Source: Tillus elongatus (lineage: Eukaryota > Arthropoda > Insecta > Coleoptera > Cleridae). Taken from it: DNA of 64,000 nt. Shown here in pieces: positions 9,237 to 55,769 of this stretch (its first letter is position 1; each line of letters begins with the position of its first letter). Location of the stretch: assembly GCA_964006375.1 (NCBI GenBank), contig OZ023265.1, positions 173,235,443 to 173,299,442 on the forward strand. Reading direction: 5' to 3'. The position numbers and the translations under genes are program-made. The notes below the pieces were generated by a model, which was not told the DNA's origin, did no database searches, and saw only the letters and a list, made by a program, of their open reading frames with translations.

Positions 9237-10707
9237 ACAGGGTGGCGCATTGAAAAAGAAACATACCGATTTGCATCCAGAGAATCTTTTTTTAAGAAAC
9301 GCTGAAACAGGTCAATTTTAATATTGAGGGGGACATGTTTTGACATAAAACTCAACTTTGTCACATCAACCCCTTATAGGTGGTGATAACAACCCTTATA
9401 TTTTGAATAGGGGACATGGGTCGAGTGTTACATCATTTGAAAGCTCCTTCTTTTCTGAATTCAGCACACAAATTTTTTTGGAAGTTTTATCAACTCGTTT
9501 GAAAATTATTCACAGTTGGATTTGCAAGAACGTATTTGATTCATTGTGATTAGAAATTCACTAATTAGTCAATTTGTCGTTAAAAAAACTGAAAAACAAA
9601 ACCAAACGTTCAAAAATGTTTATTCGGTTAAGTAAGTGGTCAGATTGTTGACCACCGGCTTCCATACAAAAGTACAAATTTTGTTCAAAACGAGCTCTGA
9701 CATTCTGGAGCATTTGTGGGGTTATTAGACAAGATTATTCAACAATGCGTCGTCGTAATTCTTCTAGAGACTCCGGTTCTGTTGCGTAAATTCTACTCTT
9801 TAAATGGCCCCATAGAAAGAAGTCTACAAGAGTTAAATCCGGTGATCTAGCACCTCTACGCTCAATCCATTGTCCTGGAAACTCTCTGTTCAAAAACTCC
9901 CTAACACGTTGTGAAAAATGCGGAGGAGCTCCATATTGTTGAAACACTAATTGATTTTCTTGATAGCGATCATCATTTTCAACAATGTCAATTAGTAGAT
10001 GGTAAACGATATCTTCTAGTAACTTCAAATACGTTTCGCCACTCCAATTGCCATCAAGAAAAATTGGTCCGATTAAACGGTCTCCGAAAATGTCAGTTCA
10101 GACATTCAATTTCTGTGGAGTTTGTGTGTGGACTTCGAGAAAATTTCTTGGATTATTATCTGTCCAATAACGAGAATTATGACGACTGACTGTTGAGTTT
10201 AATAAAAACGTACACTAGTCTGAAAAACAGATATTGAACAGAAAGTTCCCGTTATCAGCTATTCGTGCAGTCATAACTTCACAAAACTCCAGCCGCCAAT
10301 CAAAATCGTCTTCATTCAGTTGTTGTACAAGAGGAATTTTATACGGGTGAAATTTATGATGCGTCAATGTCCGCTGAATAATTTTTCTTTTGATGTTTGA
10401 AACAGCGGCCAATTTTCTCGTGCTCAAAGTTGGGTCTGCAGCAATTTGTCCTAAAACTTTCATCTCAGTAGTCTCATTTCTAACCGGAAATTCACGTTCA
10501 GGATCCCGTTTTTTGTTGGGTACTGAACCACTTTGTCGAAACTTTGCAACTAACTCCAAAATGTATTTTCTGTTAACATGTCTGATCGGATGTCGTTCAT
10601 TAAACAAGTTTGCGGTACGGTTGGTACCGTCATCGTTTTTGAAAAAAAGCGTAATTATTTCAACTCTTTCTTCTACAGAACACACCAATGTAAAATTATT
10701 TTTCGGT

Positions 10708-34860: not shown

Positions 34861-35579
34861 AACCATTTTGTAAACTTGATTCTGAAAATATTTTTTTGTG
34901 TGTCTGTCGGTCGATAGGTCTGTCAGCCTGTACGCCTGTCTCTTAGTAGGCGCGATAATTTTCGAACGAATTGAAATACAATTTTTAAATTTGTTATCCA
35001 GTTAGCGCCCAACAAAGAAACGCTTCGAATTGTTTAAACGCTTCGAATTGTTTTTGGGTAAGATCACTTGAGGGGGTAGGGGACAAATATGGGGTAATTT
35101 TGTGAAAATTGCCCCTTTTTCGATTAAACTCGAGTAATATAACGTTTCAGAAGTTTATGTGTACAGGAAAACAACCTAAATTAATTTCATAAGAATGTCT
35201 TTCTGAGGAGAGTAAATTATCACAGCTTTGTGGAAGTTTTGATACAATTTGCAGCACAATTTAACATGGTTTACTTGTAGAATATATTTTATTGCTTACA
35301 GTGGTTTCATATATTCTCTGTATTTAAAGAACCTTATTACCTCTAACTTTAGCGTTAACACGATTGACTTTTTAAAACAATTTTTATTAACTATTACAAA
35401 AATACACAAGTTATACATATAAAATATTAATAATAAAATACTGATATCAACATAAATGTGATATAAAATTGCGTAGCAACGAAATTATTCAGACTAAACT
35501 GTGACGAGAAGTGAACGCTGAGTCTTCGTGCTATGCCCTTTTATAATCGCACAGGGGAGCGTTTTGTCTTCCCTGCTCT
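34861..35579. other. AT-rich DNA; contains an empty-site relative of the LTR insertion
   Basis: No gene. GTAGAATATATTTTATTGC (35277-35295) followed by TTACAGTGGTTTCATATATT matches the joined flanks of the LTR element at 24165 and 30772. The 35340-35530 stretch resembles 41757-41900 and may be an old LTR fragment. Confidence 0.5.
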
Positions 35580-37364
35580 CTTGCCTAGTCGCGGACGGCT
35601 TCCTAAGAGACTCTTAGGACGGGGGTACGAGGTACAGGGCTATGTGGACGAGATTGTCATTATAGTCCGAGAAAATGTTACACAGTCAGTATGGGAGAGC
35701 ATGCAGATAGCACTAAAAGTGGTGGAAAGGTGGACGGTTAGCCAAGGGCTCGGGGTGAGTCTCGAGAAAGCCACCGTCATACCATTTACGAGGGGGGAAG
35801 TAGGAGGACCACAAAACTCTCACTCTATGTGGTCGAAACATTCCGATGGCCAGTAAGGTAAAATATCTTGGGGTCGTATTGAACTCTAAGCTAACCTGGC
35901 CACGTTGAAAAAATACTGCGCAAGGCAGTTATAACCCTAGCCGTCATTAGGCGGATATATGGAAAAACGTTGGGACTGCGACCTAGTATAGCCCATTGGC
36001 TGTACACAGGCCTGGTCAGACCATCATTACCATACGAAATCCAGTGCCAAACGAAAACTGGGCAAGATCCAAAGAAAGGCTTGCCTCGGCATCACAGGGG
36101 CCATGACCTCAACCCTAACAGCCGCTATGGAGGTGTTGCTGGATCTGCCCCCCATATACTTTGTTATTATGAGGGATGCTAGGATAAGACTATACAGACT
36201 GGCCTGCAATAATAGATTGAAGTCCAGCCCAGGCTGCAGGGGCCACTGCAAGATTCAGGTGATCGTGACGGAGCCCATGTTTGAAATGAGGTCAGACTTC
36301 GCGATCCCTCGAATCTGTAGGGAAAATAAGTGTAGAGTGGTAATCCCCGACCGCGAGGCATAGCGGGGGAGACGCCGGGCTTACCACGGGACGCGCTCGT
36401 CTGGTTCACCAACGGATACGACGGGAAGCGTGGGACGAGAGCAGGCGTTTTTTCAGAAGGACCGAGGGTCTTTCAGGCCGAAATGTACGCAATCTTCCAC
36501 TGCGTGCGAAAGAACAAGAGGAGGGGCTACACTAACAAAAGGATCCTCATAGCCATAGATAGACAGGCAGCCCTTAAGGTCGTAAGTAGCCCACGGGTAA
36601 TTCCAGGCTGGTAAATGAATGCCGAGACTAGACGAGCGACTTGGCTGGGCAAATGAGGTCACCTTCATCTGGTTGCCGGGTCACTCTGCGGCAAAATGGA
36701 ATGAAAAAGCTGACAGTCTCGCGAAGAGGTGATCAGCAGAACCATTTATGGGACCAGAAACGGTCCTGGGCGTATCGAGAGGCACTGCTAGGGGAACCAT
36801 CAAGACCTGGGTCAGGTCCGGTCAGGTAAGGTATGCCAGCATAAGGCATACTGGGCAGATTGTCCAGGGCTCAGACATGGGAAGATACTAATTGGGGATC
36901 CCGGTTCAAAGAGATCTGTGGAGCTGCTAAATCTTAGCAGAGGACAGTCCAGGAACATAACAGAACTCTTGATGGGACATATGGCTGTCAAGAAACACCT
37001 GCATAAAATTGGGCGGTTCGAGGGGGATCTGGCATGCAGACTCTGCGGCGAGGGGGGGGGGACCAGCCCAGCACATCTTATGCGAGTGTAGAGCTCTGGA
37101 CCGCAAAAGACAACTGATCTACGGACAGCCTAGGCCGGAGACAAAGCAATATGAAACTTCACCCTATCAATTGCTGTGCAGACTAGTAAGGCACAGTAAT
37201 TTTGGAATGGGTGGAGTAGAAAAGACAAAGGGCATGCACAGTGAGCCAAAGGCTGTGGTGCTATCGGGACGGCAAAGACGCGGACGAGCTCTAAGGGAAA
37301 AAAACGTATCTGGCCAGATTAAATATTTGCTTATGGTTATTTTTAAGAAGATTTACATATAAGA
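35580..37364 (+). pseudogene. LOA/R1-type LINE 3' half: RT end, RNase H and Cys/His tail
   Basis: In order: GYVDEIVIIVRENV (RT active-site block, Asp changed to Glu in the YxDD box), TVSQGLGVSLEKATVIPFTR, KYLGVVLNSKLTW (35870-35900, shifted frame), GLRPSIAHWLYTGLVRPSLP, an RNase H domain with WFTNGYDGKRG and VFQAEMYAI.. (catalytic residues partly replaced), FIWLPGHSAAKWNEKADSLA (last RNase H block), and AQHILCECRALDRKRQLIYG. Many frameshifts. The 3' part is nearly identical to 17155-17345. Closest layout in the window is the intact LINE at 48.9-54.8 kb. Confidence 0.85.
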
Positions 37365-47867: not shown

Positions 47868-48854
47868 ACATTCAGCAATATTCCGGTTATCCGCAGCATC
47901 CCCGAACTCGAGGGTGCAGTGGATAATCTACAGTCCAAAATTCAATGTTCTATCGAACATGCATCAAGGACGTATCCCGCCCAGAGCAATCTGCCACCTT
48001 TTCCGTCCAGTATCAGAGAAATGATACTCGAAAAGAACCGCGTGCGTAGACTAGCTCAACGCACCGGAAACCCCACCGACAAACGAGACGAAAACAGACT
48101 CATCAAACAAGTACGATCCGCCCTACAAGAACTCCGCAACAATCGTTGGGAGGAGCGCCTGCAAACCCTGTCTACCCAAGACAATTCCGTCTGGCAAATG
48201 GCGAAAACCCTTCGCTTCCAAAGACTTCCGATATCCCCGGTTCACGGCCGTAACGGTGCCGTATACACGGATGCGGAGAAAGCTACTGCATTCGCGCAGA
48301 TCATCTGGAGTTGCAATTCAGCCCGAATTATAACAACGTTGATCTGTCGCACGTAGCAAGAACGCACCGCTACGTCAGGAGTGCGCTTCGCACCACCCCA
48401 GACACAACTATCGAGCCCACAACTTTCGAAGAAGTTTCCTAAATAATCAAATCATTAAAAATTAGGAAAGCTCCGGGATACGATGGAATCTCCAACGTAG
48501 CCCTGAAAAACCTCCCCCGCAAAGCCGTGGTATTCCCAGTTACGATTATGAATACCAGCACTCCACCATAGACCAAGTCCTTCGTGTGGTGGAAAACATC
48601 ACCGAAGGATTTAGTAAAAACAAGTCAACTGGTGCAATATTTCTTGACATTGCTCAAGCCTTCGATATGGTTTGGCATGCGAGCCTCCTAAACAAACTTC
48701 TATGTTAATTATCGTCTCCCTCTGATTCTGCTAATCAGGTCATACCTGCAACAGAGGAAGTACCAGGTCAAGCACTTGGGAGCCAGATCTAGAACGTACA
48801 CAGCCACGGCTGGCCTCCCGCAGGGTTTTGCTATCTCCCCTCTGCTGTACAATA
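47868..48854 (+). pseudogene. Jockey-type LINE, 5' part (host of the nested LINE)
   Basis: Frame 47919-48356 (MDNLQSKIQCSIEHASRTYP, MILEKNRVRRLAQRTGNPTD, NSVWQMAKTLR) is the linker between endonuclease and RT in Jockey-type ORF2. Then RT blocks in broken frames: IIKSLKIRKAPGYDGISNVA, STIDQVLRVVENITEGFSKN, GAIFLDIAQAFDMVWHASLL, YQVKHLGARS..AGLPQGFAISPLLYN. The reading is interrupted at LLYN by the nested LINE and resumes at 54845. A deletion between 48530 and 48550 has removed part of RT. Confidence 0.85.
48842..48854 (+). repeat. target-site duplication, left copy
   Basis: CTGCTGTACAATA, identical to 54832-54844. It encodes the LLYN of the interrupted LINE. Confidence 0.95.
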
Positions 48855-48942
48855 GTAGTAGTAGTAGTAGCAGTGGTGGGGAGGCCAACGCCAAGCAAGT
48901 AGGCCACAATGGGCCCTTTTTGCCAACCCCAGCAACCATGCT

Positions 48943-51900
48943 CTACTCTTCCTCGGTTCCGTCGCCAAACCGCCTCGACCTCGAGATGAAGGCCGTGACG
49001 GTCTTCAATTGGACGGTACTTACCTGATTCCCCTGCAGAGTCCTTGATCCGAACAATTCTGCTCGAAGACTCCCAAAAGCCTCGCATTCACACAGGTAGT
49101 GGTAGGACGTTTCTTCATCCTCGCCACATTCCTGGCAAATGGGATCCCTCTCTACGCCTATCAATGTGAGGTGTCTTCTAAGGGCGCAGTGGCCTGTCAG
49201 CACCCCGAGGATGCGGCGAAGCGCAGGTCGACTCCTTCCGAGTAGCCAGACAGCTTTATCTCTGTCCGGTCCCTCCACGAAGTCCCTCGCCTGCCTGCAG
49301 CCATCAACCGACCCCCAGTGCCTCTCCATTGCTTCCTCGGTCCACCTGTCTAAGACGACAGAGACTGTCTTCCTACTTATGCCTATCGCAGGCTCCGGGC
49401 CACAGAACGGCCGCCGGGAACCAAGCTTTGCGAGATTATTCGCCACCTCATTCCCCGCCACGCCACAGTGTCCCGGAACCCACACCAGTTGCACCTCCTT
49501 CGTCCTGGCTAGCCCTCTGAGGGCGTCAGCGCACTCCTGAACCAGGGGTGACCTGATTCTGGCCGCGCAGACTGCCCGGAGGACCGCCTGGCTATCCGAG
49601 CAAATGCACACACATTTCTCGGGACTCATCTTCACATCCTGTCTATTGGCCACAGACAGGATAGCATACGCCTCTGTTTCGAATGCCGTGGTGTATGCGC
49701 CAAGAGCATAGCTCTCGCGCACCCCCAGGCCCTCGATGTATATTCCTGCCCCGGAGGATTGCTGGTCCTCCAGCCGCGATCCGTCGGTGAAACAGACCAG
49801 GCTTGCGGGCTGGAATGTAACCTCATTTTCCCTCCACTGATCCCTACTGGGGATCCTGAGGGTGTATGGCCTAGTCAACCTAATATCGTCCTCGGCATCC
49901 CTCACCTTTATGGCGGAAATCGGAATTTCCTTTTCCACCTCCTTGGCGACTCTTGCATGCCCTATTACTGCTCCCTCTCCGCTCCAGTTACCTGAGTCCC
50001 GGATCCTAAGATGCGACGCCATAGCCTCCCTTCTGATACAGATGGGAAGCGGTGGCAGCATCAACAGGACCTCTAGTGCGGCTGAGGGTGTCGTCCTCAT
50101 AGCGCCTGTGATACCCAGGATAGCCAGCCTTTGGAGTTTGGCCAGCTTCCTGCTGGTTGTTTGGTTCACACCACACCACCAGACCAACGCCCCATAGAGG
50201 ATTCTCGGCCTGACGATCGCAGTGTAGATCCAATGAAGGATCCGGGGGTTAACTCCCCAGGTCCTCCCTATCACACGACGCAGCTGCCAGAGGGTCGCTA
50301 CTCCCTTCCTCACAACTCGTTCTATTTGCGACCCCCATGTTAGTTTCGGGTCCAGGATCACCCCCAGATATTTGACCTCCCGCACTAAAGCTAAAGGTTT
50401 TCCAAACATCACGGGCGCCCTGAACCCCTCTACCTTCCTCTTCTTGGTAAATAGAATCATCTCCGTCTTCGCCGGGTTTACGGAGAGTCCCTGCTCACCA
50501 CACCACCTTTCGATTATGCTACAGGCAGCTTGCATGCACTCACAGACGACGCCGAGGAATTTGCCGGTGACTAAGACCAGCCCATCATCAGCGTACGCCT
50601 GTGCGTAGAAGCCATTCTCAGAGAGCCGCTCCAAGAGGCCGTCCATGACCAGACACCATAGATGAGGCGAAAGGCAGCTCCCCTGGGGACAGCCGCCCGT
50701 CACCCCAACGTCCAGCCCTCGGCCCCCCAAGGTCAGCGACACTCTCCTGTCCCCCAGCATGCTCGCCACCCAGCTTATTAGGGACCTCGGCGTTCCCCTC
50801 TCCTGTAGGGCGTTACAGACCGTATCCGTCCTTGCCTTATCAAAGGCCCCCTCCACATCGAAGAACACAGCTAATGTGCTCTCCCCGTAGTGTAGAGCCC
50901 TTTCCACCTTCCGCGTCACAGCGTGGAGCGCCGTCTCCGTCGATTTTCCCCGCTGGTACGCGTGCTGACCTTTGTGGAAGGGATGATCCTTGAGGATCCC
51001 TCCCAACATAAACCTATCTACTAACTTTTCCAATGCCTTAAGTAGGAAGGATGTTAGGCTGATTAGCCTGTACGCCTTGGCCAGCGTGTAGTCCTCCCTT
51101 CCCGGTTTGGGAATGAAGACCCCCCTAACCCGGCGCCAGGCCTTTGGGACGTAGCCCCACGCCAGGCTGGCCCGAAAAACCTCCCTTATGTTGGGAAGCA
51201 GTATATCCAGGCCCCTCTGGAGCAGGGCTGGAAAAATCCCATCGCAGCCTGCGGATTTGAATGGAGCGAACTCGCTCACCGCCCAGGTTATAGAGCCATC
51301 TGTGACCACCTCCTCCGCCAGCTGCCAGTCCGCATTCGGGACTGTCCACCGGCCCGGTTCGGCAGCCTCCGTGACGGCTCCACCGCCCTCAAGGTGAACT
51401 TCGGCGAGATGACGCAGGGTCTCCTCACCGGTGCTTGTCCAGCTCCCGTCCTGTTTCCTTAAAGATCCTACATTACTACCTAACTCTTGTTTGAGTACTC
51501 TCACCAGCCTGGCTGCGTCAGGCAGGGAATTGACTTCCCCGCAGTACGCGCGCCAACCAGCTCGCTTACTCCGGCGTAATTCCTTCTTAAACTCCCTTCT
51601 GGCAGTCCTAAACTCGTCCCAGGCCGCTTCACCCGATTCTCGGACGGCTCGGTTTAAGGCCCTCCGAGTCCGCCCGCGTAGTACGGCGAGATCCTTGTTC
51701 CACCATCTAACTTTGATGGACGGTTCCCCCCTAAGTGGTGACGCGGCCTCGTAGGCTGCCATTATTTTCCCTTCTAGGGCCTCGACCTCGCTATCTAATG
51801 CCTCTATAGAGAGTCTACTCCCCTCTGGGCTCCTTGGCGACCCACCGAGGCCTATTAGATAGGCATCCCAGTCGGTCTTCCTTGGATTTCTTCTGGGGGG

Positions 51901-52692
51901 AGAACTCTCACGGTCCACATCCAATTCAAAGCTGATCATACGATGATCAGACATTGATATGTGTTCCGTCACCCTCCAGTTAGATATATCCTCCGTTATT
52001 CCTCTGCTCGCTAACGTAATGTCGATCACCTCCTGTCGGATACGATTGACAAACGTTGGAGCTGTACCTCTATTTAATACCTCTAGGTTCGTTGTAGCCA
52101 AGTACTCTAATAGAGCCTCACCGCGTGGGTTGGTATCCGTGCTGCCCCACAATCTGTGGTGAGAATTGGCATCGCAGCCTATTATCAGTTGTAGCCCATG
52201 CTCCCTCGCGTAATCGACGATACGCACCAATTCCTCCGACGGAGGCAGCCCCCGCCGATCGTAGGGAACATAAAGGCTGCACATCAGAACCTTAAGCCTA
52301 ATATTACTCACCTTATACTCCAGGACAGCTGCTGTGACGTCCCTGGACCCGAGCTGCGGCAGCAACATCACGTCCAGATCCCTCGACGCCAGTATGCATG
52401 TCCTTGGTTGTTCTTCCTGTGCTTCACCACCGATGAGGATGTTGAAGCCAATTCCTCCAAGCCCTCTAACTTGCTTCCTAAACACATAAGGCTCTTGAAT
52501 CAACACTACGCCGCCTGGACCGCCTGCGAGGAGCTTTGCTAGCTCCCCAGTGGCATCCCGGCTATGCTGAAGGTTGATCTGGCCCACCCGCAGTTGCCCC
52601 GCGAATTTAATCGCGACGCCGCTCGGGCGGAGGCCTCCCCTGGTCGGAGCCCGTCCGTTCGCCCGCCGCAGGCCGGGCGGAGGCGACCGCAC
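48943..52692 (-). CDS. LINE ORF2: endonuclease, reverse transcriptase, RNase H, Cys/His tail (1249 aa, intact)
   Basis: Endonuclease, residues ~30-255: LRVGQINLQHSRDATGE, VVLIQEPYVF, LQLIIGCDANSHHRLWGS, ..SDHRMISFEL (catalytic Asn/Glu/Asp/His motifs all present). Reverse transcriptase, ~430-790: FIPKPGRED, YRLISLTSFLLKALEKLVDR, LAVFFDVEGAFDKARTD, GGCPQGSCLSPHLW, QAYADDGLVLV (YADD near residue 699), VKYLGVILDPKLTW. RNase H, ~960-1095: VCFTDGSRLED, FETEAYAILS, CICSDSQAVLRAV, LVWVPGHCGVAGNEVANNLA (all four acidic residues kept). The end has CQECGEDEETSYHYLCEC. RNase H plus this tail fits the LOA/I-R1 group. The start Met overlaps ORF1 by 86 bases in the +1 frame, so translation probably needs reinitiation or frameshifting. 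No lesion seen. Confidence 0.95.
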   Translation of the reverse strand: MRSPPPGLRRANGRAPTRGGLRPSGVAIKFAGQLRVGQINLQHSRDATGELAKLLAGGPGGVVLIQEPYVFRKQVRGLGGIGFNILIGGEAQEEQPRTCILASRDLDVMLLPQLGSRDVTAAVLEYKVSNIRLKVLMCSLYVPYDRRGLPPSEELVRIVDYAREHGLQLIIGCDANSHHRLWGSTDTNPRGEALLEYLATTNLEVLNRGTAPTFVNRIRQEVIDITLASRGITEDISNWRVTEHISMSDHRMISFELDVDRESSPPRRNPRKTDWDAYLIGLGGSPRSPEGSRLSIEALDSEVEALEGKIMAAYEAASPLRGEPSIKVRWWNKDLAVLRGRTRRALNRAVRESGEAAWDEFRTARREFKKELRRSKRAGWRAYCGEVNSLPDAARLVRVLKQELGSNVGSLRKQDGSWTSTGEETLRHLAEVHLEGGGAVTEAAEPGRWTVPNADWQLAEEVVTDGSITWAVSEFAPFKSAGCDGIFPALLQRGLDILLPNIREVFRASLAWGYVPKAWRRVRGVFIPKPGREDYTLAKAYRLISLTSFLLKALEKLVDRFMLGGILKDHPFHKGQHAYQRGKSTETALHAVTRKVERALHYGESTLAVFFDVEGAFDKARTDTVCNALQERGTPRSLISWVASMLGDRRVSLTLGGRGLDVGVTGGCPQGSCLSPHLWCLVMDGLLERLSENGFYAQAYADDGLVLVTGKFLGVVCECMQAACSIIERWCGEQGLSVNPAKTEMILFTKKRKVEGFRAPVMFGKPLALVREVKYLGVILDPKLTWGSQIERVVRKGVATLWQLRRVIGRTWGVNPRILHWIYTAIVRPRILYGALVWWCGVNQTTSRKLAKLQRLAILGITGAMRTTPSAALEVLLMLPPLPICIRREAMASHLRIRDSGNWSGEGAVIGHARVAKEVEKEIPISAIKVRDAEDDIRLTRPYTLRIPSRDQWRENEVTFQPASLVCFTDGSRLEDQQSSGAGIYIEGLGVRESYALGAYTTAFETEAYAILSVANRQDVKMSPEKCVCICSDSQAVLRAVCAARIRSPLVQECADALRGLARTKEVQLVWVPGHCGVAGNEVANNLAKLGSRRPFCGPEPAIGISRKTVSVVLDRWTEEAMERHWGSVDGCRQARDFVEGPDRDKAVWLLGRSRPALRRILGVLTGHCALRRHLTLIGVERDPICQECGEDEETSYHYLCECEAFGSLRAELFGSRTLQGNQVSTVQLKTVTAFISRSRRFGDGTEEE

Positions 52693-54226
52693 TCCATGTC
52701 GGAACTCTGGTTACACTCAGAGTCACCAACTCGAAGTACAGTCGCCAGCCTTGCCCGTCCAGCTCGCGAGCTACCTCAGGCCCCACCGAAAAGACCAGAC
52801 GCCATGCCCCAGGTCCTCCTGCCGTCTCCAAGTGCCGCCACTGCCCAACATTGAGCGAGCGGTTCTGGAGCGCAAGCATCCTGACAACATCCTCTAGGTC
52901 CACCTCTTGACTTCTGAGCCAAAAGCCGATCCGGACCGGCCATGGGGCGCCCCCTGCCCTTACGGCGCTGAAGGCGATCTCCCCCACCGTCGTCCCGGAC
53001 CAGCCGTTGAGAAGCCAACTCAGGGACTCGTCATCCTCGGCGGTCACCAAGAACCACCCCGGATCGACTATCCCAGAGTTGCGGAAGCGGAGCTGCAACG
53101 CCCTGTCGGATATCGTCATGGCGTCCAACATCCCCGCCAGCAAACTCCTCCTTATTGGCTCCGCCTCTTCCGTCAGGACTACGCCATCCCCCCTGTTGGA
53201 TGTGATGACTACCTGCATTTCCCTCCTACCCGCCGGACCTGACGTTCCCGAGGGGCCAGGGCCCGCCCCAGCAGCCGGGGTCGCGACCGCGCCCCGCCCC
53301 CGAAGGAGTGGGGACACATTAGCCGCTTCCCCCCCGGCCGCCGGCGCACAACCGCGGCTAACCCTCTTGGCCCGCCTCTCCGGCGGTGTTTCTTTTTCCG
53401 GTCTTGGGCGCTTCGCGTACGCGCCCCCAGTTGACTTGGGCCAGCCTGCCGGCCTCGACCGTGGAGAGCCTGATGGTCCCCCCTGAGCCGGTGGCCGCCT
53501 GTCCAGCTTCTGTCCCTGTGGGCTCGGCTGCGCCCCAGATCTCTTTTTTTCCTGCTTCTCTGCCGACCGCCCGGGGGGCGACACAGGGGTAGAGCCTTTC
53601 GGCCGCTCCCCCACACCTCGGCCCTCGCCCGGTCCCGTCGGCAGGACAATCGCCTTCACTTCCTTTTCTCTCGCCTCACGGTGCCGCCGTCGCACCTGCC
53701 GCCAGGCCGCCCGATCCGGCAGCTTCCCCGCCCTGACGATCCCTGAGGGTTCACCCGGCTCAGAAGCAGCCCGACCGGCCGCAGTGGCGAAGGGGATTTG
53801 CGGCGGCCCCCCGCCTTGCGGGGCCGCCGCTGCCGAAGCAGCCTGCGCCTCTGGAGGACTCACACCCCCCTGATGACGCTGCTGCCTCAGCTCCTCCCTC
53901 TCTCGCCTCCTTTTCTGGGCTCTCCACTTCCTTTTCCTTCCTCTCTTCCGTTTCCTTCGCGACTCCTCGTCCTCGGCCCCTCCCATGGACACGTCCATGG
54001 GCCCGGCCAGACTCGCAGCCGACGAAGTTCGCCCCCCGTCGCTCCCCCCGGCAGCAACGTCCCCGACGGACCCGTACGGCTCCACCCCGGACACCCCGCC
54101 AGGAGAGCGGAGGAGCGTTTCTTCCAGTTCCCTGCTGGAACTGCTTGGAGAGACAGGGATCTCTCTACCTTCTACCTCCTCGCTTATTTTTGGCACGTTA
54201 CCTTTATATTCTTTATCCTCATTCAT
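52607..54226 (-). CDS. LINE ORF1 protein (539 aa, intact)
   Basis: Residues 1-90 are acidic and Ser-rich. Residues ~90-340 are Pro/Gly/Arg-rich and very basic, with RKRKRGRKRKWRAQKRRRER near 92-111, a likely nucleolar or nucleic-acid-binding segment. A folded region follows (~350-510) with LRFRNSGIVDPGWFLVTAED, WPVRIGFWLRSQEVDLEDVV, LALQNRSLNVGQWRHLE and ARELDGQGWRLYFE. The 'L..QN..L....W....' layout resembles the DUF4780-type domain seen in some insect LINE ORF1 proteins, from memory. No CCHC knuckle is visible. It would coat the element RNA and help import it. ATG at 54224-54226 follows a ~600-bp 5' UTR. Confidence 0.85.
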   Translation of the reverse strand: MNEDKEYKGNVPKISEEVEGREIPVSPSSSSRELEETLLRSPGGVSGVEPYGSVGDVAAGGSDGGRTSSAASLAGPMDVSMGGAEDEESRRKRKRGRKRKWRAQKRRREREELRQQRHQGGVSPPEAQAASAAAAPQGGGPPQIPFATAAGRAASEPGEPSGIVRAGKLPDRAAWRQVRRRHREAREKEVKAIVLPTGPGEGRGVGERPKGSTPVSPPGRSAEKQEKKRSGAQPSPQGQKLDRRPPAQGGPSGSPRSRPAGWPKSTGGAYAKRPRPEKETPPERRAKRVSRGCAPAAGGEAANVSPLLRGRGAVATPAAGAGPGPSGTSGPAGRREMQVVITSNRGDGVVLTEEAEPIRRSLLAGMLDAMTISDRALQLRFRNSGIVDPGWFLVTAEDDESLSWLLNGWSGTTVGEIAFSAVRAGGAPWPVRIGFWLRSQEVDLEDVVRMLALQNRSLNVGQWRHLETAGGPGAWRLVFSVGPEVARELDGQGWRLYFELVTLSVTRVPTWSAVASARPAAGERTGSDQGRPPPERRRD

Positions 54227-54670
54227 GGTTGCTAGAAAAAATGTTGTGTGATGGTGTGCTTATGGTTTGGTGAGCGTATAGATACGGGAGGTCACCCCAC
54301 CGCCCCCCCGGCGCTTCATCCGTGATGAGACTTGATTCCGTTAAGAGCGGCTCTGCGGCCACGCCGTGGCGACCCGAAGCGTGCAGCTAACCCCCTGTTC
54401 CGGAGCCACCCGGTGCTGCTGGCACGATCGAGCATTTTTCGAATGGATGATAGGGCAGCCCCCTACACCGGCCAAGGCAAGGGTGGGCCCCTGTACTGTC
54501 CATACGGCGCCAGGTGTGCCAACCCTGGTTTGCACAGCGCTGCCAGTCCAGAGCAGGCTCCGCTCGGAGCCCCTCCTCGGAGTCCGCGCCGAAGGCCGAG
54601 AAGCCCAACCCGATCTATGTGCCTCGTGTCTGTGTTTGTATGCGTGTGTATGACGTGTGTGTGAAGGTTT

Positions 54671-54831
54671 GAGACTTTAGTAGACCATCGGCCCTGGGCG
54701 TTATTCCCATTGCCGACAGTCGCGCCAGGGGTGGCACGTGGAGCCAGTCTCTAGGAGTCCAGTAGCTAAGTCACTCGCTGATCGATCAAGAGAACGATCA
54801 GCGCACGACCAGGCTAAGGGACCACACCCCC
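54671..54831 (-). ncRNA. HDV-like self-cleaving ribozyme at the LINE 5' end
   Basis: On the minus strand, base 1 is 54831. P1: GGGGGT (54831-54826) pairs with ACCCCT (54732-54727), beginning with the hallmark G.U pair at the cleavage site. P2: GAGACT (54751-54746) with AGTCTC (54676-54671). P3: GGC (54745-54743) with GCC (54735-54733), closing L3 TCCACGT. P1.1: CC of L3 with GG (54726-54725) right after P1. P4: GACTGTCGGC with GCCGATGGTC, ten continuous pairs (two wobbles). J4/2: TACTAA, supplying the catalytic C. A 9-bp hairpin (CGCTGATCG/CGATCAGCG) fills J1/2. Cleavage would free the 5' end from upstream-initiated RNA exactly at the element boundary. Confidence 0.88.
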
Positions 54832-54844
54832 CTGCTGTACAATA
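54832..54844 (+). repeat. target-site duplication, right copy
   Basis: CTGCTGTACAATA, identical to 48842-48854. Confidence 0.95.
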
Positions 54845-55769
54845 TATTTGTCGCAGACATTGCGACAGCCCCCCTAAACGTGACTTACGCACTGTACGTA
54901 GACGACACGACCATCCTCAGCAGCTACACTCAGCCGAGGATAATAACCGAACGACTTCAGACTGCCGTAGTCAAGCTGCAAGCATGGTATAGGAAATCCC
55001 TTCTAGCCATAAATCCTATAAATGTTCAGCTGTCCTATTTTCCAAGAGGAAACACACACCTCACGAACACGTTTCATTATACAACCGTCTAATTCCCTGG
55101 CAAGATTCCGCCAAATACCTCCGGGTTTTCCTCGACAAACACTTAACACGGCGCCCCCATGTCGCCCGAAAAAAAGCCTCGATGTTCATCTCGAAACTGT
55201 TCTCACTTCTAAATAGAAATTCCAAACTGTCCATGACCAATAAGTTGCTCATGTACAAAGTAATTACCCGGGCAGCCTTGACCTATGCATCACCTGCATA
55301 GGCCACACACATCAAGACCCTTCAAATCACCCAGAACAAAATTCTGAGAATGGTTACCGAAGCGCCATGGTTTGTGCGAAACAGTCAGATTCACTCTGAT
55401 CTGGAAATGCCTTCGATACTTAACTTTATAACTCAACTATCGACAACTCAGTTCGCAAAGCCGCTTCTCACCCAAATGCTCTTCTCCGTAGTGCCACCGA
55501 CTACGACAAGCAACTTCCACATAAGCATAAGCGTCCAAAGCTTACTTACCTGATAACGCCCCCGAGGCAAAAACAGAATGGAAACATTCATACCCAAAAA
55601 GTCATTGTGTGTAAATCTTTCCGACGGAGGTATGGACTAAGGTACGGTACTCCCAGGGAGGGGGTTTTAGTGAGTACAGTCTCACAGTACCTCGATATCC
55701 CACGGCACCAACGGGGGAGTGAATGGGGTCTGCATGAGCATTTCCCCCTCCTGTATCCAAAAAAAAAAC
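54845..55769 (+). pseudogene. Jockey-type LINE, 3' part
   Basis: Continues the LINE interrupted at 48854: IFVADIATAPLNVTYALYVD then DTTILSSYTQP (YVDDT active site near 54895-54912), LQTAVVKLQAWYRKSLLAIN, then in shifted frames RLIPWQDSAKYLRVFLDKHL, KLLMYKVITRAALTYASPA, LQITQNKILRMVTEAPWFVR. The 3' UTR (55590-55768) ends in A9 at 55759-55768. The frameshifts predate or postdate the nested insertion, but the coding sense resumes cleanly after the target duplication. Confidence 0.85.

Follow-up and report, generated by a model that had tools for sequence, protein, structure and literature searches.

The Host Element and Its Family

The window analyzed here is a whole stretch of 64,000 nt from the genome of Tillus elongatus (assembly GCA_964006375.1, contig OZ023265.1, positions 173,235,443–173,299,442, forward strand). 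Its minus strand carries a complete and intact non-LTR retrotransposon of 5.98 kb (48,855–54,831), delimited by a target-site duplication (TSD) and by comparison with other copies. Two open reading frames were found on the same strand: ORF1 (52,607–54,226; 539 aa), taken from the ORF list and matching the Pfam domain DUF4780 (PF16012), and ORF2 (48,943–52,692; 1249 aa), with domain matches to an APE-type endonuclease, a reverse transcriptase (RT) and an RNase H. The two frames differ and overlap by 86 nt (52,607–52,692). The first listed start of ORF2 is a GTG, with no ATG ahead of the endonuclease, and its translation would need this GTG, a frameshift or a stop-restart mechanism. The element ends in a 3′ tail of (CTA)n repeats (48,853–48,874, minus strand), which overlaps the edge of the TSD by two bases. 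It sits antisense inside the RT gene of another LINE; when the insert was removed, the RT frame of this target read without a stop across the site, and stops were present elsewhere in that LINE.

The initial annotation had described a complete LINE of the LOA/R1 type. The element proved to be intact, while the LOA/R1 label is an assignment by domain content only (APE endonuclease, RT and RNase H, together with a C-terminal CCHC-like cysteine motif recognized by eye). The best PDB match of the endonuclease was TRAS1, a member of the R1 group. Searches for protein relatives returned only pattern matches, none of them confirmed, in viral and genome contigs and a single RT match of 23% in plasmids. 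Elsewhere in the window, the plus strand (35,500–37,300) carries the decayed remains of a copy from a related, old LINE family, with pieces at 29–47% amino acid identity to ORF2; other copies of this old family were 78–90% alike among the scored matches listed. Outside the window, an RT motif appeared three times at intervals of 431 bases (G000:C7:91911629, 91912060, and 91912491), as if in a tandemly repeated RT fragment.

When the genome (1.72 Gb, 30 contigs) was searched with a 201-nt query from the 5′ end, 909 candidates were obtained and 40 of them were scored, 25 of which, including the window's own copy, shared the top score of an identical match. Twenty further copies were fetched whole and were full-length and 99.2–99.7% identical. 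An ORF1 of at least 500 aa and an ORF2 open over at least 1200 aa were kept in 12 of 21 copies (these 20 and that of the window). Since the copies are full-length and near-identical and over half retain both frames, the family is young and probably active. The identity of the first 161 nt among recent copies was not counted as selection, as the search ranks copies by identity in that stretch. Numbering from position 54,831 on the minus strand as nt 1, 27 of 28 recent-family loci matched from nt 1 and one (L025) from nt 2, a common start that is partly due to their being picked by a query beginning at nt 1. The DNA just upstream of nt 1 varied from locus to locus, and this variation does not follow from the way in which the loci were picked.

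Fold of the First 161 Nucleotides

The first 161 nt of the element (54,671–54,831, minus strand) contain, in the right order, every part of the nested double pseudoknot of an HDV-like ribozyme, as judged by a descriptor and by relatives. P1 is formed by the 5′ strand GGGGGU (nt 1–6; 54,826–54,831) and the 3′ strand ACCCCU (nt 100–105; 54,727–54,732), with one G.U as the first pair, four G-C and one U-A; cleavage is predicted just 5′ of 54,831. A seventh pair, 7–99, would be possible but would compete with P3. P2 (nt 81–86, 54,746–54,751, with nt 156–161, 54,671–54,676) has six standard pairs, and P3 (nt 87–89, 54,743–54,745, with nt 97–99, 54,733–54,735) has three. L3, UCCACGU (nt 90–96; 54,736–54,742), provides nt 91–92 for the two C-G pairs of P1.1 (CC/GG) with nt 106–107 (54,725–54,726). 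P4 (nt 111–120, 54,712–54,721, with nt 140–149, 54,683–54,692) has ten pairs, two of them G.U. The pairs are standard in all helices. In the HDV family, the catalytic C lies in J4/2 and is followed by NRA; J4/2 here, UACUAA (nt 150–155; 54,677–54,682), agrees with this rule and places the predicted catalytic C at nt 152 (54,680). The individual parts named in the initial annotation, from the initial G.U of P1 and the UCC start of L3 to the 3-bp P3, 6-bp P2, 10-bp P4 and the C of J4/2, were thus all present, and so was their fully nested arrangement; the range that it had given, 54,671–54,831, corresponds precisely to nt 1–161.

J1/2 (nt 7–80) is not open. It is filled by a long hairpin domain, P1.2 (nt 9–76; 54,756–54,823), identified by folding (−36.5 kcal/mol) and by covariation. 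Folded whole, 164 nt had a minimum free energy of −79.2 kcal/mol (z = −6.1), and none of 200 shuffled sequences was as stable. In this minimum free energy fold, which cannot hold pseudoknots, nt 95–110 were drawn into a rival hairpin of −7.3 kcal/mol.

Searches With Descriptors and Rfam Models

A strict descriptor was run over both strands of the window, which included the search of the minus strand proposed in the initial annotation, and returned a single match, the site at 54,831. In first-order random sequence, the same descriptor found 41 start sites when the composition was that of the element (170.88 Mb) and 18 when it was that of its first 300 nt (170.06 Mb). The chance rate is hence about 1 to 2.4 per 10 million bases, an optimistic estimate, as both descriptors were built from HDV-family rules after the candidate had been seen; the site found here lies at the base where the element starts or at most one base away. 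With a looser descriptor, 90 starts were obtained in 10.04 Mb of random sequence, and the window contained one further weak match, at 9,653 on the minus strand and with a 5-bp P4, which is about the number expected by chance. On these strict and looser rates a chance fold was rejected.

No Rfam family reached the gathering threshold anywhere in the window, and over 54,600–54,900 no HDV family appeared at E ≤ 10, the only matches there being two chance snoRNA hits. Of the 39 diverged copies described below, 20 likewise showed no Rfam match. The Rfam HDV models derive from compact forms and do not include a pseudoknot, and for this reason the mismatch was not treated as defining.

Conservation and Covariation in Diverged Relatives

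A codon pattern that excluded the element's own family gave 134 sister-subfamily places, 100 of which were listed. In a separate, first set of 20 sister loci, chosen by an RT motif, none matched the first 2 kb of the element and two held RT pieces, and three loci of the old family (35.5–37.3 kb) offered no usable 5′ end. Four of 19 sister loci (L061, a wrongly set region, left out) matched the 5′ part, two of them reaching nt 1–4, and three of a further 20 matched, one reaching nt 1. A diverged ribozyme from these places, L071, was then used as a query and gave 365 candidates; the 40 that were scored comprised L071 itself and 39 others at 80–89% identity, and these 39 were fetched. Together with five earlier copies and the window, and after dropping the duplicate L098, 44 distinct and mostly diverged sequences were aligned.

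The putative active-site bases were kept almost throughout this alignment: C152 in 42 sequences, U90 and C91 in 43 each, C92 in 40, G95 in 37, A154 in 42 and A155 in 43. Mean conservation was highest in J4/2 (0.973), and it was greater in nt 81–107 (0.914) than in J1/2 (0.86). The combination of at least five P2 pairs, three of three P3 pairs, both P1.1 pairs, at least eight P4 pairs and C152 was found in only 25 of the 44 copies. All six P1 pairs formed in 19 of 44 scored copies, seven of these with a one-base shift that fits an indel in J1/2; this is a generous count, for which the script took the best six bases within 30, and in which L119 was unscored and the duplicate L098 included. In L121 the best six bases lay at an odd place. 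Many of the copies with an incomplete P1 are 5′ truncated or decayed.

The core helices were paired in 88.9% of cells, compared with 37.6–46.7% in slid controls, and their covariation score was 0.088 against 0.076 in shuffled alignments (3/500) and at most 0.048 in slid ones. Seven core cells were changed on both sides, against 2.8 in shuffled controls (6/500) and 4–13 in slid ones, none of them in P4 and one in P1. The number of core pairs changed on both sides was three, against 2.4 in shuffled alignments (211/500), and slid controls reached as many or more (3–9). The clearest case was pair 88–98 of P3, which is C-G in 34 sequences and G-C in five (unpaired in four and a gap in one), a flip that may be a single event. 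No convincing compensatory changes were detected in P1 and P4 among the 44 sequences, and P1 varied too little to be informative. On this alignment, covariation in the catalytic core is thin, and P1 and P4 are silent either way.

The signal was stronger in P1.2, which was paired in 89.5% of cells, compared with 20.8–48.7% in slid controls. Twenty-three cells were changed on both sides, against 8.2 in shuffled alignments (0/500) and at most 11 in slid ones, and the covariation score was 0.214 against 0.189 (0/500) and at most 0.097, respectively. Six pairs were changed on both sides; 32 of 500 shuffles gave at least as many, one slide gave the same number and another gave seven, and the number of pair types was ordinary (264/500 shuffles). 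These values favour P1.2 to some extent, its 22 pairs having been chosen from folds of the same sequences with three rarer inner pairs dropped. RNAalifold, used unaided, recovered P3 and part of P1.2 (ten pairs, four with changes on both sides), but not P2 or P4. As far as can be judged from these comparisons, the P1.2 helix is kept by covariation, the strongest of any part. The compensatory changes that the initial annotation had proposed to look for in other copies were hence found in P1.2 and in pair 88–98, but not in P1 or P4.

The 5′ Junction

The TSD, identified by repeat comparison, consists of two 13-bp copies on the plus strand, one at the 3′ end of the element (48,842–48,854) and one at its 5′ end (54,832–54,844). 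Since it ends in G, position 54,832 (a G on the minus strand) may belong to the element, whose first base is therefore 54,831 or 54,832. The duplication itself was as the initial annotation had described it, but it fixes the first base only to within one nucleotide, and not at 54,831 exactly. In the window copy, the predicted cleavage site would lie within one base of the 5′ junction of the element.

Both ends were sought at 29 loci, counted by hand, and 15 of them were settled by a TSD of at least 10 bp. A single G was found between the TSD and nt 1 in 12 of these 15 (L004, L006, L011–L014, L020–L024, and L027), two in L028, four in L018 and none in L007, so that at least one extra G was present in 14 of the 15 resolved copies. 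The junction was open in six copies with a TSD ending in G (L008, L015, L017, L019, L026, and the window copy). The remaining eight loci did not enter the count, for lack of a 3′ end seed in the fetched stretch (L001, L002, and L005) or because of the 5′ duplication or what is left of it (L003 and L016), a TA repeat (L009), a missing TSD (L010) or truncation (L025). Viewed from one side only, the base before nt 1 was a G in 36 of 38 loci (L001–L028 and L139–L149, with L025 and L146 left out). This sample was drawn from top matches and overstates the share of copies with an extra G, as 134 exact six-G starts and 38 five-G starts were counted genome-wide. Most DNA copies thus begin with a run of six G, of which, according to P1, only the last five would lie downstream of the cleavage site.

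The single extra G of most resolved copies is not what cleavage at nt 1 would predict, and three readings are compatible with it. It could be a sixth G proper to the element, with a P1 able to shift by one position; it could stem from the reverse transcriptase, through addition of a C at run-off or slippage along the run of G; or it could reflect a capped RNA. A single untemplated G in human L1 is read as a sign of a cap (PMC6425141), one and two untemplated G in L1 also appear (PMC4729875), and R2 junctions gain untemplated bases at run-off (PMC3774820). Such a cap sign should not be expected from the 5′-OH end left by a ribozyme.

Additionally, in two unlinked loci (L002 and L016) a duplicate of nt 1–18 precedes a second start, and a remnant of such a duplication, its last bases, persists in L003. 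The outer copy has again a six-G start and the same P1 strand and can re-form P1, and it could be the end now used by the ribozyme. The duplication, in these three loci, would be compatible with a template jump at the end of the RNA, the new end then being inherited.

Discussion

All parts of the fold lie at the 5′ end of the element and are kept in diverged copies, and P1.2 and one P3 pair covary; on this basis, the sequence at 54,831–54,671 (minus strand) is, with high confidence, an HDV-like self-cleaving ribozyme that makes up the first 161 nt of a non-LTR retrotransposon active now or in the recent past. It very probably trims the element's own transcript at its first bases. In the proposed mechanism, a co-transcript entering from upstream DNA would fold at the start of the element, where the first six bases would pair with nt 100–105 and the P1.2 hairpin would hold P1 and P2 together. 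C152 would act in catalysis, leading to a cut just 5′ of nt 1, and the RNA freed in this way, with a defined 5′ end, would be translated and then copied back by target-primed reverse transcription. The defined end is proposed as the reason why each full-length copy begins at the same place.

The arrangement resembles the HDV genomic ribozyme in the order of the helices, the initial G.U, the CC/GG P1.1, the UCC start of L3 and the C of J4/2 followed by purines. L3 is one base shorter here than in that ribozyme; J1/2 is much longer, and the setting is a retrotransposon. Baggins belongs to the LOA group and SART to the R1 group. HDV-like ribozymes are reported for R2, R4, R6, RTE, SART, Baggins, and L1Tc, with several LINE groups carrying them at their 5′ ends (PMC3774820; PMC11620745), in agreement with the initial annotation, which had considered them established in R2 and some other LINEs. 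The novelty that it implied for a LOA/R1-type element is smaller, as ribozymes of SART and Baggins are in print (PMC11620745). Both have an HDV-like ribozyme in the 5′ region, that of Baggins being listed among those that cleave at the element's 5′ end (PMC3774820; PMC11620745), a likeness drawn by description and not residue by residue. R2 shares the HDV-like fold at the 5′ end, a P1 of 6–7 bp and a conserved catalytic C, but its target is the 28S rDNA and, for the majority of the species tested, cleavage falls upstream, within the rDNA (PMC3774820). In the element studied here, the flanks differ among the copies read and the predicted P1 uses the element's own bases only. As in Agam-2, a large HDV-like ribozyme with a P1.2, J1/2 contains a helix that draws P1 and P2 close to each other (PMC4908430); P1.2 is here about 68 nt long, and the likeness is one of architecture. 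In a literature search that had the main primary report outside its scope, no paper was found that links a ribozyme with the LOA clade, nor one that joins an HDV-like ribozyme, untemplated bases, a cap and a retrotransposon. Hence, the ribozyme is a well supported further example of an arrangement already known in several related elements, and what sets it apart most is the junction with one G.

This junction bears on the strongest of the alternatives, in which an internal Pol II promoter would yield an RNA capped at or next to nt 1, and the HDV-like fold would be a relic or have a different function, for instance in protecting the 5′ end or in translation. We consider it unlikely. The extra G of 14 of the 15 resolved copies, exactly one in 12, speaks in its favour, but the retention of the active-site bases in diverged copies is unexpected for a relic, and a start of five or six G differs from the usual insect initiator. 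The parallel with the capped template of human L1, indicated by a single untemplated G (PMC6425141), is also weakened by the untemplated bases that R2 gains at run-off (PMC3774820).

Still more improbable is a non-cleaving 5′ leader whose stable structure is retained because it serves packaging, stability or reverse transcription. It would agree with the strongest covariation being that of P1.2 and with the reported benefit of HDV-like 5′ module stability for R2-based insertion (PMC11331408), but not with a conservation that is higher in J4/2 and nt 81–107 than in J1/2. Finally, chance pairing in a GC-rich leader is hardly conceivable, for although the descriptor was written after the candidate had been seen and core covariation is thin, the 41 matches in 170.88 Mb of random sequence, the position at the element end, the conservation across 44 sequences and the flip of the P3 pair argue against it.

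Under the preferred reading of a self-cleaving ribozyme, the freed RNA might reach the reverse transcriptase with one reproducible extra 5′ G, for example by capping after cleavage or by specific addition of a single C at run-off. This proposal is speculative and rather doubtful; if true, processing by a ribozyme would be combined with a cap-like end, and the junction with one G seen in most of the resolved copies would be accounted for. In any case, the extra G raises the question of whether ribozyme-made ends can be capped, or of how the reverse transcriptase finishes on them. The element also extends the known set by a probable ribozyme whose J1/2 domain is large and which the Rfam models missed here. 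Since a single genome holds this young and abundant family, with copies that are intact, subfamilies that have diverged and numerous 5′ junctions, the family would allow a direct test of how a ribozyme sets the 5′ end of a LINE.
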